Positions 17,961 through 46,578 of a stretch of 64,000 nt of DNA are shown piece after piece. Source of the stretch: Nautilus pompilius (lineage: Eukaryota > Mollusca > Cephalopoda > Nautilida > Nautilidae); the NCBI GenBank assembly GCA_018389105.1, contig JACATO010000974.1, forward strand, positions 434,001 through 498,000, in the 5' to 3' direction. The notes beneath the pieces were generated by a model. It worked only from the letters and a program-made list of their open reading frames with translations, was not told where the DNA came from and ran no database searches. The position numbers were made by a program, and so were the translations under genes. Position 1 is the first letter of the stretch, and each line of letters starts with the position of its first letter.

Positions 17961-18200
17961 GAGCAGCATGGTACTCCAATGATGATCCTGCTAGACTGCT
18001 CAGGTCAAGAACCTGAATTCGCTTCCTATGGGAGCAAGTCAGTCTGACATATTTCCCTAGCATGGTTTCTTCTTGCACTTCTTCCTTAGCTGCTGGGTGT
18101 GTGGATTTCCTTGAGGTACTCTGATTACCTCCCACATCTAAAAAAAAAAATTCTAGTAAGGATTTCCCTGCCAAAATTGGAAGTGTCAGGTGTCACATGG
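17961..18200 (+). mobile_element. tRNA-derived SINE copy (most complete)
   Basis: The head 'atggtactccaatgatgatc' is followed by 'gtcaagaacctgaattcgct' (B-box-like), 'ctagcatggtttcttcttgc', 'gtggatttccttgaggtact', 'acctcccacatctaaa' and the tail 'ttctagtaaggatttccctg'. This copy was used to identify the other members. The A-run inside the tail is typical of the family here. Confidence 0.65.
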
Positions 18201-19521: not shown

Positions 19522-21926
19522 CTATATACTAAATTTTCTGGCTTTTGATATTGCAGAATCATCTACAAGCTCTTTTAAATTTAAATCAAGCTAATTTTGA
19601 TTCAAAGTCCAACTAATCTTTCTTCAGTCATAGTGGACTTCAAATGATTCTTAATGAGCTTTAATTTCGAAAATGGTCTCTTACCTCCAGCCACTGATAC
19701 TGGTATTGTTAGCAAAAAACAAAGCTATTGTGGTGTTAGAATACACTTCTTCTAAATGGCAATCATAAATGAATTTCAAAATGTCTTTTGGTCCTTTATT
19801 ATCTTCAAGTAGTTTGCAAATCAATTTCAATTCTTCAAACCAGTTTTACTGCTTCAGTATCAGATTCTTTCATCCGTCATTAGAACAAATTCCAAAGCTT
19901 TACAATACTGAAGCAAGATTTCAGGCTGGCAACTGGTCAATGGTTTCATGTTATATAGAAAGCTAAAGTGAACACTATAATTTTCTAGTTGTTCAAATCA
20001 GTCACTTATTGATGCTATAGCTGCATCAACAATAGTATTAAAAAATTCAGTCTCAAATCTTTTTTTTTTTTTTTCAGAGTTTTGTAGCAGCATCTCATCT
20101 AAACTTTCATAATCGAAGGGTCATTTTTTCTTTTTTTTATCATTTACAAATCTGTCTTTCAGGAGGAAACTTTGCTGGTTTTTCAACAGCATCTGCAAGC
20201 TCCTGAGCAGTAATTTTCATTTCGATAAATCTGTTTTATTGGTAGTTTTGTAAAAATTTTAATACTTCTCCATATGATTTGACAGCAAAATTAATGTCAA
20301 TATTTACTGACTGCAATTGTTTGCTCATGGGATTTTTGTGCTTTAAATTTCATACCATATTATGATACAGCATATAAATTTGTAGTTGGCTGTGTTTTTT
20401 TGCTAAAGATTCTGCATCAGCTCTTGTTTCAAAACCATGTGGTCCTTTAAAGTTTTCATCATTTTGATGAACATTGAAGCATCTTTGATTTCTCCCAAAT
20501 GAAGTCTTGGTTGTATTGTATCTATGGATGCTGAGATGTAGAGTTGTTGTACTAAACCAAAAAATGAATTAGAGCCTAAGTTGCATTTTACTGCATCATT
20601 TACTACTAAGTTTAATGAATGGGAACTGCATGGAACATAAAATGCTCTTGCAATTATATTCAGTGTTTTGAACTCCATTTTCCTTACCAATTATTTGCAC
20701 CATAGTCATAACATTGACCATGCATTTTATCTATATTTATATTAAGTTTGAAGAGTTTCCCCATTATTTGTTCACTCAGGCCTCTTCCGGTTTTATCATA
20801 GATTTCAACAAAACTCAGGAAATGTTCTTTAATATCACCAGAGCTTGTACATACAAACCATACTATAATGGTCATTTGTTCCTTGTTGCTAGAGTCAGGG
20901 GTGCAGTATAAAAATACAATGCATTTTGAAATATAATCAGAATTTCATTTTTAACTTTTTGTGACATCAGTTGAATCAATTCATTTTGGATGCAAGTACC
21001 TAGGTAATGTACACTTTATTCCTTATTTTCAATCCTGTCCAAATGATCTTTAATTGTACTATCAAACAAGGTGAACAATTCCACTATTTACAACAAAAAA
21101 AAAAAAAATGTACATTATCAGGTGTGTTTATTCTAGACAAAGAACTGCAAAGTACAAGATTCTGAGTAGCTATACAATGTATTATTGCACATAACCAAAT
21201 TAATACTGATCTCCAACACTGAGATTCTTTACTAATAATTTGATTTTGTGCGTCTAGGGTTTGAGCCAATTTTAATCGAATTATCATCTCTTGCCAATTT
21301 GAAAAATGTGGAATATGAGCATTTGATTTTTTGTGGCATTGTAACATATTTGAAAGATTCTTCCAATCTTTAAACTCAGTTGTTGATACTATTCCACTGT
21401 CAGTGATTTCTTTTGCAAATATTCTATAGCAAAAACAACAAACAATCATTTTTGACTGAATATACAAGCAAAATTCTCTTGATGACTTCATCACTTTTCA
21501 AGGTACAATGAATGCTCTTGAAAATTTTCTACTGGTTTTATTTTGTAGGAAATCAAACATTTTTATTTTCACTGGTCCTTTTTAATGTAGTGTACTCTGA
21601 TTGCATCTGAAATTATCAATGACCACTCACCTAGATCTGATACTTTTATTGTTTCTGTTACAAATTTGAAGGACATTTCGTTTTCTGTGTTCTCTGTTAT
21701 ATCATTTTTGTCAACCTCAACAATTTTTTTCATCATTGGAAGGTAATAGTTCTCTCATATCAACTGTAGGAGCAGGAAGTGGTTTTGATGAAGTTAATGG
21801 TCTAGAATCCACTTCCGATACATTATTGCTCTCTTTTTTGAAATATTTTGTAAGACATGCTTGACTTTCAACATCCTTCCATTTTGCTTCTCTAGTTTTT
21901 TTTTTTTTTTTTTTTATATGCTGCAC
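19522..21926 (-). pseudogene. hAT-family transposase remnant (ZMYM1-like/TTF-zinc-finger type)
   Basis: A domesticated-looking but broken hAT transposase. Landmarks in order on the minus strand: a K-rich N-terminus with 'SQACLTKYFKKE' (near 21880); a TTF-type zinc-binding region 'MIVCCFCYRIFAKE' and 'FKDWKNLSNMLQCHKKS' (near 21330-21450); 'ATQNLVLCSSLSRINTPDNV' (near 21110-21170); 'TSSGDIKEHFLSFVEIYDKT' and 'INIDKMHGQCYDYGAN' (near 20700-20850); 'YVPCSSHSLNLVVNDAVKC' (near 20590-20640); and a hAT dimerisation segment 'RPFSKLKLIKNHLKSTMTEE' (near 19640-19690) before a TAG at 19522. Multiple frameshifts and stops interrupt it. Length of about 2.4 kb matches an intronless ZMYM1-like hAT ORF of about 800 codons. 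Terminal inverted repeats were not found. Confidence 0.88.
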
Positions 21927-24900
21927 CAGATAATCATTTACAAGGATACATCTTTAGTTAGCTGAAATCAAATTTTATTTGAGGCCCAAATTAAAAAATG
22001 TGTACACATCTGTTATTACACTGTTAATGTATTCTATGTACTTTTCCTTGAGAACTAACTACCATGATCCTATCTCAAAATCTACAGAAAATGTGAAAAA
22101 ATCTGTATTAATTGTAGCAGCACATCAAAAATGTGTTTTCATAAGTAGGCCACCATCTTGAGAGCAGTCAGCAAATTCACCCGATCAAAACAGCTGAAAA
22201 ATGGAAGTGATCGAGTAAAATAAATGTAGAAGTGTTATTTCATTATCTGTGGCACTGCAAGTTTGTATGGAAGGCCACCAACATCTTTTAAACATGGAAG
22301 TCGACCATTTGACCAAAAACCTATTATTAAAAGGTGGTGGACAAGTTAAAGCTTGCAGTCTAGTTTTTTTTGTTGAAAATAGTCATCTCCAATAAAAGAG
22401 CTATTGTGTGCTTAATATGCATGTTTCATCAATAATAATACAGACTGGGAGGTTTATCTGTATTTGATTCATAAATTATTTAACTATAAATATAATGAAA
22501 AATGAAATTACTATGATTACATTATGAAATGCAGTAAATTACAAGCAATCAATTATCTATTATTTTTTTCAATTTTGCCACCCGGTGATGGTTGGCCCTG
22601 CTTGTGCACTAGGTACAGGGCCTGATGTTAACATGACATTAATTTACCTTGCTGAATTTAGGTATCAGACTTTCAAACAAAATTTTAAAATTCCAGGGTC
22701 ATGCTAAACTCTTGACCTTAGCTATAGATACAAATTAGTAATCAAAATATTTTGATGAAAATGACAAAACAAGTTAACCATTTAGCAAAACACTGGTTAA
22801 AACAAAACTATATCATCATTTATTTACCAATCTATTTTTCACTTTCCTTGTACTGTTATCCTCTGAAAAGCCAAAGATTGCATTAAATAATAAGTATTTT
22901 ATTTTAATATTGCCACTAAATTCTACACAGACAGACAAACAGATTTTATATTTTTAAAAGATATCCAGAACAATACATAATGCAGGCAAACAAACATGGT
23001 TATTACTTTGCAATACAAAATCTTTTCTTTATGTAAGAAAGCAGCAGCACATTGAGACAGTGTAGATGAGATCAATAATCCTGGTCTTCACAGAGCTTAT
23101 TCCTAGCAAAGAATTTATATTAGGGAATCCTGAGAAGTGAGTATACAGACATATGTTTGTAGGTATTAGTTAAGGATGAATCCCATTAAGTGTATGTGAA
23201 TTATGTCTAATGACTGGCAAGGCCACAGCAGAGTTATGCTCAAACTTTTTTCATCACTGCATTGCATAGGTGATATGAACTGGACACCTTTTCCATAAAA
23301 ATAATGCCTTCCTTGGAAAAATGGCTATTTACATAAACAAAAAGTCATATCTCTCCAAAGGTAGATATCAAATAGACCTTTGTCCACAGTGGCCCAAATC
23401 ACTCCCCCCAAAATGACTGCCAACCTTATTGTTGTGACTTAGAAAACTTGAGAAATGCTTTAAAAAACTTTCATTTCTGATTGTATCTATCTTAATCAAA
23501 TGTTGGCCCATCTAATATTTTTATAGTATATATATTAATGATTTAAAGTATTAAATTTACTACCAAATGCACGTAAGGAGAGAGAATCTCAATAACAGTT
23601 TAAATTAGCTACTACTATAATTAATTCTCTGAGGGACAGCTTATGGGTGCAACCTTTATCAAGCAAAAAATGATAACTATCTAAAGCAAACATCTTGGTG
23701 ATACTATAGTTTCAATGTGGAGAAACAAACTGATAATCTGAATGTCAATCACTGGCCAATACGAAGCCTGTACATAAATACTAATGAGCAAACTGGCAGT
23801 GTACAGGCCAACAAATGTCATTGAAATGAGAGACAATATTCCACTTAATTATATTTAAAAACTCTAAAGGACAGACAAATGAGGTAAAACATGGTAACCA
23901 AAAAAAAAAAAAAATGAACATTTTATCAGTACTTATACAACAAAATAAATGATGAATGCAATTTAAAATTTCATGCCTACCTCCCTTGTACAAACACAAA
24001 AGAAACAACAGCATTGTGTCACAACTTTATTCTTTTTTGATATTATGGAGAAGATATTGAAAAAAATTAAAAAATAAGAAATTGTTAGTTATCCTTTATC
24101 TTTATTTATTTTAAAAATGAGTTTTCTGCATATTATAGGAGATATTTATTCTATGGCAACATTCTAGGTAAACAAAAATCTATGGCTTCATAGAAAAACT
24201 AGGCTTCATTTTGAAAATAATGAGAAAGTAACATTATACTAAACTTTACTTCATTAATTTTCCAATTACCAGCCATCATTTCTTTGTTCTTTCAGTAATA
24301 TAGATAGGATAGGTAACTTGCTTTCTTTAAGCACAACCTGTTATCTCTCATCAAGTAGAAGCTGAACCCAGTGGACTATAAACTAAATTCAAAATGTAAG
24401 AATTTGATATTTTTAAAAACAAGTATTTAATATTACTAACTAGTTTCTGTTACCAAACCATTCTAACCTCAAAAGGTTCCAAATAATTGAATATAATGGA
24501 AGAAAATGTATGATTTCTTGTTTACTTTAGTTCTTAGTTTCTGAACTTGATTTTGAAGGTAATACCAGCAAATTAAATCTCACTGCAGAATTCATCAAGT
24601 TAATTAAAGTGAATAAATAAAAAGTATTTAGACAAATTGGAAATAAAAGCCAATCATCCCAGCAAGCATTGGATTTTCCTCAAATATTGACTTTTCTCTC
24701 CACTGCTGCAGTTTTGGTTCATTAACATAGAAAAATGATTTCAGATACAATATTCACTACTGGCTTCCATAAATCAAATTCATCATCAATGTATTAATCC
24801 ATCTCAAAATCAAGAACTCGGCTGCAGTTTACTACATACTGCTGAGCATTCTAACAACATACCATGTGATCTGAAGTTAATTGTAAGCCAGACGGAAACG

Positions 24901-44265: not shown

Positions 44266-44440
44266 AGTGTGTAATGCTGAGGTTATCCACTAGTGTGCTG
44301 CCTAACCTGCACCACAAGGGGCCCAGCACTTCCAATGTTGGCAAGAAAATCCCTACTAAAACATTTTTCGATGTGACAAGAAACCATGCCAAACCAAGCC
44401 AATTCCAACCAGGAACCAAACTCTGGCAGCCCTTGCCACA
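44266..44440 (-). mobile_element. SINE copy, 5' truncated, abutting the TIR element
   Basis: On the minus strand 'gtggcaagggctgccagag' is followed by 'tggttcctggttggaattgg', 'ggcatggtttcttgtcac', 'tttagtagggattttcttgc' and 'caacattggaagtgctggg', the family order. Its head end lies about 30 bases from the left end of the inverted-repeat element at 44470. Confidence 0.6.
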
Positions 44441-44469
44441 CTGGATATTTTCATTAGTTTCGAAAATGT

Positions 44470-44796
44470 CCCACAGGCAGAATTTTTTTTGCTCAAAAGT
44501 TGTCTAAGTGTGTCTAGAGCACAAGAAAAAAATTTTTTTTACTTACTCTTCCGGCAAAAATTTTTTAGGTCGATTTTTGTATTTTCACCCAATCTTCTAA
44601 ATTATGTGGAGATTTCTGCGGAATAATTTGTTCTAACTTTTTTTAAAAAGCAATTGACTAAAATCTGGGGAAAAAACTGCTGATCAGCTTGATTTGAAAA
44701 GTTCAAAAAACAAGTTTTTTGAGTCAAATTATTGCAAAGACCAAAGGTTATCCCAAAAATTCGTATTTATTCCAGAGTTTTTTTCATTTTCACCCG
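44470..44796 (+). repeat. left terminal inverted repeat
   Basis: Includes 'gctcaaaagttgtctaagtg', 'cttccggcaaaaatttttta' and 'gcttgatttgaaaagttc'. Each is found in reverse complement in the right arm with a few substitutions. Confidence 0.85.
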
Positions 44797-45274
44797 TACA
44801 CCTCCACTCCCGTGATCCCCTATGTTCTTTGGACACCACAAAAGTATTAGACATATATTAAATCTTGTGATTTTGGAATATGCATAAAAATGGTGATGTT
44901 GAGAGGATTTTTTTTGTTTGTTTGAAATTCTAAAACAGTAATATTGTACATGATATGACTGTGTTGTACTTGTTTGCTTTTAGACGACTGAAGTGAATTT
45001 ACATTCAAGCGGTGGACGGGTTGGCCAAAATCTCTGCGTGTGAGGTTGTGTCGGAAAAAATCCAGGGCCTTCAACTTCGCCCTACCTAACTGAATACCAC
45101 AAAACTCATTTGCCTTCTCATCTCATGTATGGCGTCGTTCAGCAAAGTGGTGTCATTTACAATGTGCCCTTCACTCAATCCACAATGGTCCCAATCAATC
45201 GATCAATTCACAGATGATTTTGATGCATTTTCACAGCTTACCTCAAGAGCTTCCCTCGTCATTCCGGGTCAGAG

Positions 45275-45907
45275 TTGGCAACACCAAAAATCCGAGTCCT
45301 CACACACGAAATGCGTCAATGGATATTTGCAAACAAATGCTCACTCAGCAGAATCAGCGAGCAACCATTCAAAACAATCCACAAGTCTTTTCTGAACTTC
45401 GCCTCAAGATACAGCATTCTGAATACTGGAATCAAAAGCAAAAGCCCTTCTCCAGCTCCTTCTTCGAGCTCATCAAAAGTACACACTCCATCTCTTAGTA
45501 CTCGTCAATCAAAGTTAAAACTGCCTGCAAAATTGAAGCCAACTCGTCAACAGCGATCAATCCCTCAACCACGCAAATGGCCAGTCTTGCCTTCTCAAGT
45601 CTCTTTAAAAAGAGTTGCCATGAAAGAACTACAAAATGAAAAACCAACAAAATATTCCAGAGATTCCAAAAAAGCCTCCAGCTCCCCAACCCGCTATGTT
45701 GGCAACATCCAGTACACTCGGAAGCGTCACCTACGTGCAGTGATCGGGTACAATCAGTCACATCTACCGCTGTCTCCAGAAAGTATCACTCAAATGAGAA
45801 TTGCAGTAAAGATGTTCACCGATCGTTCCAAAGGTGGTGACGATCTCAGAATTGATGGTTGTGCCCCATGGAACCCTGGGCCACCGTCGACATCATTGGT
45901 ATGCTGA
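45275..45907 (+). CDS. 210-aa basic, Ser/Pro-rich protein of unknown function inside the TIR element
   Basis: The longest open frame in the window, far longer than expected by chance at this composition. Residues 1-45 are mixed and begin MATPKIRVLTHEMRQWIFAN. Residues about 50-70 are Ser/Pro/Lys-rich (KSKSPSPAPSSSSSK). Residues about 75-140 are strongly basic and probably disordered. A more ordered-looking segment, KRHLRAVIGYNQSHLPLSPE, lies near residue 150. The C-terminus reads WNPGPPSTSLVC. No membrane segment, signal peptide or known catalytic motif. The start is uncertain: neighbouring frames at 45129-45395 and 45214-45498 overlap, so a frameshift or a spliced 5' part is possible. It could be an accessory or DNA-binding protein of the element, or one exon of a longer transposase. 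Confidence 0.5.
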   Translation: MATPKIRVLTHEMRQWIFANKCSLSRISEQPFKTIHKSFLNFASRYSILNTGIKSKSPSPAPSSSSSKVHTPSLSTRQSKLKLPAKLKPTRQQRSIPQPRKWPVLPSQVSLKRVAMKELQNEKPTKYSRDSKKASSSPTRYVGNIQYTRKRHLRAVIGYNQSHLPLSPESITQMRIAVKMFTDRSKGGDDLRIDGCAPWNPGPPSTSLVC

Positions 45908-46053
45908 CTTGTTTGATAAAAACAGTTGTGGCTTTTGTAAATGTGATTTTTCAAAAACATTAGCTTTCGACTGCACACGTGCATGAAATATTAGCACCAT
46001 GTCCGCGGAGATTTATGTATCATGTCCAAGATTTAGATTTGTAATTTCTTGAG

Positions 46054-46373
46054 ATGAAATTGAAAAATGCTGGAATAAATACGAATTTTTGGGATAACCT
46101 TTGGTCTTTGCAATAATTCGACTCAAAAACTCGTTTTTTGAACTTGTCAAATCGAGCTGATCAGCAGTTTTTTCCCAAGATTTTAGTCAATCACTTTCTA
46201 AAAAAAGTTAGAACAAGTTATTCCACAGAAATCTCCGCATAATTTAGGGGATTTAGTGAAAATACAAAAATCGACCTAAAAAATTTTTGCCGGAAGAGTA
46301 AGTAAAAAAAATTTTTCCTTGTGCTCTAGACACACTTAAACAACTTTTGAGCAAAAAAAATTCTGCCTGCGGG
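46054..46373 (-). repeat. right terminal inverted repeat
   Basis: Reverse-complement partner of the left arm. The inner edge lies near 'tggaataaatacg' and the outer edge at 'ctgcctgcggg'. Confidence 0.85.
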
Positions 46374-46578
46374 AGATTCATAAATATCCGGTGTGTTGCT
46401 ATATGAAACTGAAAATTAAAACAAAAAAAAAAAAAAAACTTCATTTTTCACACAATATTTCTGCAATAGAACATAATAAAAATGAATTATGTATTTTTTT
46501 ATTATTGTTTATACTACTGTTAAACCAAGTCCTCACTGCCAGTAAAATCACATTTCATGTTTGGCATTATAAAATAAG
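46374..46578. other. A-rich spacer
   Basis: Contains an A-run near 46423-46438 just outside the right arm of the element. No gene. Confidence 0.5.

Follow-up and report, generated by a model that had tools for sequence, protein, structure and literature searches.

What is the structure formed by two long inverted arms around an open reading frame (ORF) of no evident family, and did the sequence between the arms come with a mobile element, by gene capture or by a local duplication? The question is raised by a locus near position 45,000 of a 64,000-nucleotide stretch of DNA from Nautilus pompilius (contig JACATO010000974.1, positions 434,001 to 498,000), the whole of which we refer to as the window. 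Our analysis makes it probable that the locus is one copy of a low-copy, non-autonomous and internally deleted Chapaev-like class II transposon, and that a conserved element gene survives in it in broken form.

A preliminary description, made from the letters of the window alone, had placed the inverted arms at 44470..46373. The arms are real, but these limits proved too tight, and gapped alignment of the two arms gives a transposon copy at 44437-46395, with a length of 1959 bp. The arms measure 341-356 bp and share 319 identical positions, with 16 transitions (7 of them of CpG type), 5 transversions and a number of indels between them. The element termini are CACACTGG...CCGGTGTG, with the left end reading CACACTGGATATTTT and the right end AAATATCCGGTGTG. 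The GC-richer core that had been described is also there, with a GC content of 0.42 in the core and 0.45 over 45000-45907 compared with 0.31-0.33 in the arms. The features of the copy are as follows.

44433..44436, no strand: left target-site duplication, TTGC, read from the sequence; six of the eight copies readable at both ends have such a perfect 4-bp duplication, of varied sequence.
44437..44792, plus strand: left terminal inverted repeat, which starts CACACTGGATATTTT; seen by alignment to the right arm, with the same left end in 8 of the 10 other places.
44437..45106, plus strand: segment common to the A-type copies (element ~1-670), made up of the left arm and the 5' part of the gene; from blastn against the copies and a reading of the breakpoint.
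44987..45109, plus strand: N-terminal remnant of module A, of 41 codons with one in-frame TGA; from the search with the L013 protein (C930:478987-479109, 85% identity).
45129..45904, plus strand: remnant of the module B gene, its frame broken near 45237; from alignment with L014 and its translation, and from the protein homology of L014 to L033 across the break.
45224..45907, plus strand: the open frame first described, 227 codons from stop to stop and 210 from the TTG at 45275, with an ATG at 45311; from the ORF listing and the relatives.
46055..46395, minus strand: right terminal inverted repeat, which finishes CCGGTGTG; from the arm alignment, with the right end at most two bases off in 9 of the 10 other places.
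46396..46399, no strand: right target-site duplication, TTGC, read from the sequence.

That copies with target-site duplications might be found elsewhere in the genome, as the preliminary description had envisaged, was borne out by the source assembly (728 Mb in 2558 contigs). A query with the left arm returned at least 20 matches on at least 11 contigs, and ten other arm-bearing places (L011-L020) were fetched for comparison. These places share their ends, the left end being common to 8 of the 10 and the right end, to within two bases, to 9, and the end pair of the family is CACACYGGATATTTT / AAAATATCCRGTGTG. With the window counted, all nine left ends start with CAC. Eight copies could be read at both ends, the window included, and in six of them the 4-bp duplication is perfect (TTGC, GGTG, TGTA, CATG, CATA and CGAA). 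Terminal inverted repeats in dispersed copies, together with a duplication of constant length, are the marks of a class II transposon; given that the copies are dispersed, share their ends and are flanked by short duplications of varied sequence, we infer that they moved by cut-and-paste under the action of a transposase. A distant relative, L057, shows a CCCT/CCCT duplication, read by eye, at its CACATTGG...CCAATATG ends. The alternative that the arms arose by inverted duplication on the spot and enclose an ORF by chance, with no mobile element involved, could draw on the failure to find a second copy within the 64-kb window and on the ORF itself, which has no codon-position signal and a composition like that of shuffled DNA. 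It is refuted by the spread over 11 contigs and by the differing duplications, and the protein homologues and the CpG discontinuity at the element ends also stand against it, so that we allow it next to no probability.

The limits of the element are also marked by its CpG content. The observed-to-expected CpG ratio is 0.19 for the whole window versus 0.74 inside the element, and 292 element-sized windows taken outside it average 0.163 and do not exceed 0.343. The shift coincides with the element ends, with a ratio of 0.08 just to the left and 0.11 just to the right. Such a high ratio in CpG-depleted surroundings suggests an arrival that is recent relative to the decay of CpG; alternatively, escape from methylation may be the cause. 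Because other stretches of the assembly are undepleted, with a ratio of ~1.0 across the 25 kb that we read from contig C661 (L033-L035), the contrast is a local one, from which alone no transfer between species can be argued. The difference between the window (0.19) and C661 may reflect a mosaic genome, perhaps one with gene-body methylation, or mixed sources.

Between the shared ends lie two different cores. By blastn, L011, L012, L013, L015, L016 and L018 share element positions ~1-670 and 1759-1959 with the window copy and have a different core, and L017 (at a contig end) and L020 share the same segments in part, which brings these A-type copies to eight, two of them incomplete. The core of the window element, B, is present at 96% identity in L014 (C1654) and hence in 2 of the 11 arm-bearing places, and L019 has a single arm only in the 7 kb fetched. 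The cores of L018 and L020 have an added short tandem array, in which minus-strand frames repeat LCVTFGIHYFVSLLGSTT.

Core B holds the longest open frame of the window (45224-45904, 227 codons). The 210-codon ORF at 45275-45907 is present as described, though position 45275 begins a TTG codon, and an in-frame ATG follows at 45311. When the core was shuffled 2000 times with dinucleotides preserved, 2 shuffles reached an ORF of this length, as did 13 of 2000 for its GC-rich part, and its occurrence by chance is rare but not impossible. Its amino-acid make-up lies near that of shuffled DNA, with Pro and Arg at similar levels and Ser and Lys in excess, and on this and on the codon-position test considered below we first suspected a chance frame. 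We rejected that reading because relatives of the protein were found and because synonymous differences are well in excess of non-synonymous ones. A protein search of the assembly identified relatives of B in three other element lineages, with 36-49% identity in the longer matches. These are two near-identical places on C2091 (L054 and L055; 49% identity, open frame of 251 codons), one place on C661 (L033; 48% identity) and a repeat found on C764, C38, C678, C945, C2329 and C2508 (L056-L061; 35-44% over longer stretches). The best conserved part is the C-terminal stretch ending IDGC(A/T)PWNPGP, at 82-90% over ~21 residues in distant relatives. Between the window and L054 the proportion of synonymous differences (pS) is 0.745, which is near saturation, and that of non-synonymous differences (pN) is 0.36, with 82 differences at first, 56 at second and 108 at third codon positions. 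As judged from these comparisons, module B was under purifying selection in the past.

The window copy of this gene no longer has an intact frame. Its DNA homology to L033 starts near 45103 (element 667), upstream of the ORF first described, and the protein homology to L033 enters that ORF from another frame. Near 45237 the window frame differs from L014 by a 1-bp indel, while the frame of L014 is interrupted by a TAG; both B genes are thus broken, at different places.

The A-type copies carry a protein of their own. The module A ORF has 279-297 codons in L012, L013, L015 and L016, is split in L011 and survives in parts in L017, L018 and L020, and its product opens with MTEVNLHSS, carries CVEKNPGP at residues 22-29 and contains Cys pairs in CIICF and CLSCC. 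A search with the L013 protein gave matches without an internal stop in L013 and L016. When module A of L013 is compared with that of L062 or L054, pS is 0.86-0.89 and pN 0.30-0.32, and six pairs of recent copies have ratios of non-synonymous to synonymous substitution rates (dN/dS) of 0.38-0.92. These values indicate that module A evolved as a protein, under past purifying selection. In L011, L013 and L016 the A frame continues into the right arm, which is what a deletion junction would produce. Searches of Pfam with the A proteins of three copies gave weak matches below the cut-offs, to zf-AD (E 0.15-0.17), zf-BED and ACT_3, and a PDB match to 7pkt_y (E 0.24) is not believed.

Modules A and B may well have belonged together. 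In the window element the first ~41 codons of A (44987-45109, with one TGA) stand directly before B, and the window and A-type sequences diverge at element ~670, the point at which the homology between the window and the B region of L033 begins (667). In L054/L055 and in L056-L061, B is preceded on its own strand by an N-terminal segment of A, and L033 begins with the same end sequence and has B. All three B-bearing lineages have a related left end, A and B occur together in two of them, and L062 is a further short derivative that has the start of A only. The simplest account is a single parental gene, A followed by B, from which separate internal deletions gave the A-type and the B-type copies. 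The NPGP-type motifs of A and B may resemble 2A ribosome-skipping peptides; relatives have SHPGP or SHPRP as their version of the A motif, which speaks against a 2A-like role, and our literature search on 2A-like motifs in transposons gave no work that looked relevant. In the window, L054 and L057 the NPGP motif is followed by TGGTATG, a candidate splice donor.

Two of the relatives deserve comment as loci. L054 and L055 (C2091:195916-196476 and 357005-357565), each with an open B frame, lie ~161 kb apart in stretches of at least 9.8 kb that are 99% identical; they may have been duplicated recently, or the pair may be an artefact of the assembly. L056-L061 are one larger repeat on six contigs, matched over ~5-9 kb at ~97-99% identity, which includes the relative of the A-B element.

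If these observations are taken together, a parent element can be envisaged whose gene held at least two conserved modules, the Cys-pair protein A with its early CVEKNPGP motif and the orphan protein B. Internal deletions would have turned it into two non-autonomous kinds between the same ends, the A type (eight copies) and the B type (the window and L014). The transposase that mobilises both would act in trans, recognising the CACACYGGATATTTT ends together with the adjoining arm, a proposal made because no recognisable transposase is present among the ORFs scanned. Protein B was once under selection, and in the window copy it is now broken and decaying. It probably served transposition as an accessory or belonged to the transposase polypeptide itself, rather than being a host gene. 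Of the three readings offered in the preliminary description, that of a non-autonomous rider with its own protein comes nearest to this. A second, that of a captured gene, would have an unrelated gene fragment taken up between the arms, as in Mutator-like elements, and a protein foreign to transposition. Such an event would sit well with the GC-richer core, with the restriction of core B to 2 of 11 arm-bearing places and with the other core of the eight same-ended copies. It is disfavoured, and we consider it unlikely, because three further lineages whose left ends are related also have B, in two of them together with A, and because it gave no match above the cut-offs to a named gene family.

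The group to which the family belongs can be approached through its ends and duplications. Mutator-like elements have long arms, captured genes and ~9-bp duplications, and the present family resembles them in its long arms and passenger sequence and differs in its 4-bp duplications. Duplications are of 8 bp in hAT elements, TTAA in piggyBac and TA in Tc1/mariner, and Helitrons make none, none of which agrees with the varied 4-bp duplications seen here. Chapaev elements, which belong to the CMC clade and whose autonomous members encode a DDE transposase of that group, are a better match, as 5'-CAC...GTG-3' termini and duplications of 3-4 bp are given as their hallmarks in passages of PMC4079192, and both are found in this family; internal-deletion derivatives are also described there. 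Judged by its termini and duplications, the family would therefore be Chapaev-like, with the differences that no Chapaev transposase is seen between the ends and that two conserved modules have no above-cut-off match in the libraries searched. Chapaev3 is a poorer fit, since its duplication is TWA, of 3 bp (PMC4079192), and none of the six duplications listed above conforms to it. The ends are like those of Transib and TransibSU in starting with CACA, but Transib duplications are of 5 bp (a passage of PMC4411706) compared with 4 bp here. The likeness of this CACA start to the heptamer of the recombination signal sequence is our own comparison with the heptamer letters in part of PMC3124419.

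Module A invites a further comparison. In the Chapaev group the transposases are described as having a complex zinc finger, called the Chapa domain, that they share with the N-terminus of RAG1 (PMC4411706, in part), and N-RAG-TP of Aplysia is described in a section of PMC8355894 as a transposon consisting only of RAG1-N-like sequence. The A-type copies likewise have a Cys-pair protein as the main ORF between transposon ends; unlike these, the A proteins gave only below-cut-off matches, and the window copy retains just 41 codons of A. Likened by their descriptions rather than by their sequences, module A and these proteins may be akin, and we offer this as a lead only.

The remaining reading of the preliminary description was that of a new class II family. 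Membership of class II holds, and novelty at the level of the superfamily is only a weak possibility, given that CAC...GTG termini with 3-4 bp duplications are published Chapaev hallmarks (as set out in the passages of PMC4079192 cited above). A family outside the named superfamilies, in which modules A and B would themselves make up the transposase with an unrecognised catalytic domain, is in keeping with two modules that are conserved, selected and without above-cut-off matches, and with the lack of a conventional transposase beside them. We nevertheless judge it very unlikely: the termini and duplication length already suit a known group, the copies look internally deleted, and no acidic residue is invariant in our alignment of B (A1), which comprises five sequences, fragments among them.

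A number of results weigh against the Chapaev-like, internally deleted element that we prefer. As the preliminary description had stated, there is no recognisable transposase among the ORFs scanned, nor any transposase-like match among those scanned in the stretches fetched around the A and B matches. No transposase-bearing copy with these ends was found, though no genome-wide search for the end pair was made. ORF B gave no match above the cut-offs in Pfam, NCBIfam or PDB. The ends and duplications are not uniform: right ends finish GTG in 7 of 10 cases (window counted), the three others being GTA (L011), GGG (L014) and TTG (L020); L015, one of the eight copies readable at both ends, has no target-site duplication; the flanks of L012, CGCA/TGCA, agree at 3 of 4 bases, a mismatch for which a C-to-T change would account; and in L054 and L062 a clear 4-bp duplication was not readable. 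Module A gave no tblastn match in L033, which reads N from 5002 on; the searches of the assembly with proteins A and B matched only the places described here and give lower bounds, and an autonomous copy may exist. Constraint on B is mild between L054 and L033 (dN/dS 0.53), and none is visible between the window and L014, which differ by 3 synonymous (7.3 expected under random placement), 20 non-synonymous and 1 nonsense changes. Finally, the codon-position test on ORF B by itself gives no signal (chi-square p 0.68). In a control on 34 of 70 annotated phage features, none of 52 pieces had p > 0.05, a comparison drawn from one phage that is not fair for eukaryotic exons. Frames supported by homology also fail the test, including the A-type ORFs (p 0.17-0.37 in four copies) and two hAT-like pieces (p 0.14 and 0.07), and the B frame of L054 gave p 0.049.

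Other matches and features of the window can be dealt with briefly. We do not believe the match to GldN that Pfam gave for the ORF (E 0.01; 15.9 bits, with the cut-off at 23), a PDB match to a PLEKHM1 chain (E 0.032) or the Pfam and NCBIfam matches of other frames. Viral contigs contained no relative of the ORF, of the A protein or of alignment A1, nor did an arm pattern match them exactly, and phage records gave short matches only (E 0.6) and no protein match. A search of the window with the joined flanks found no empty site, ARAGORN found no transfer RNA in it, and no Rfam family reached the gathering threshold. An older dispersed repeat lies at 1338-1468, 18056-18182 and 44327-44368, with 74% identity between the first two; the third copy is an inverted fragment adjoining the element. 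On the minus strand, 20353-21953 holds broken pieces of a DUF4371 protein (Pfam E 2.3e-06 for 20687-20944, 28.1 bits with a cut-off of 32.1), which we take to be a hAT-type transposase.

What had appeared as an odd inverted repeat is, on this evidence, a member of a transposon family of several copies, whose two conserved proteins have no above-cut-off matches in the libraries searched. The locus is not a single copy and its ORF has no above-cut-off match to a host gene, so neither of the two outcomes that would have refuted the preliminary description was seen. It also illustrates a pitfall, in that a real protein was labelled as chance by coding tests on a single sequence. The Chapaev group is usually described by its transposase, and if B is an obligatory partner of that enzyme, a second component would be added to the group. 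A further reading, which we hold to be distinctly unlikely, is that of an undescribed lineage with CAC/GTG ends and 4-bp duplications, whose parental gene would have joined a zinc-binding N-terminal module related to the RAG1 N-terminus (Chapa) to a new module ending IDGC(A/T)PWNPGP, the NPGP motifs perhaps splitting the polyprotein in a 2A-like manner. No such lineage is described in the literature that we searched, Repbase being outside its scope. If this reading were true, the family would give independent evidence of how the V(D)J recombinase was put together outside its core.
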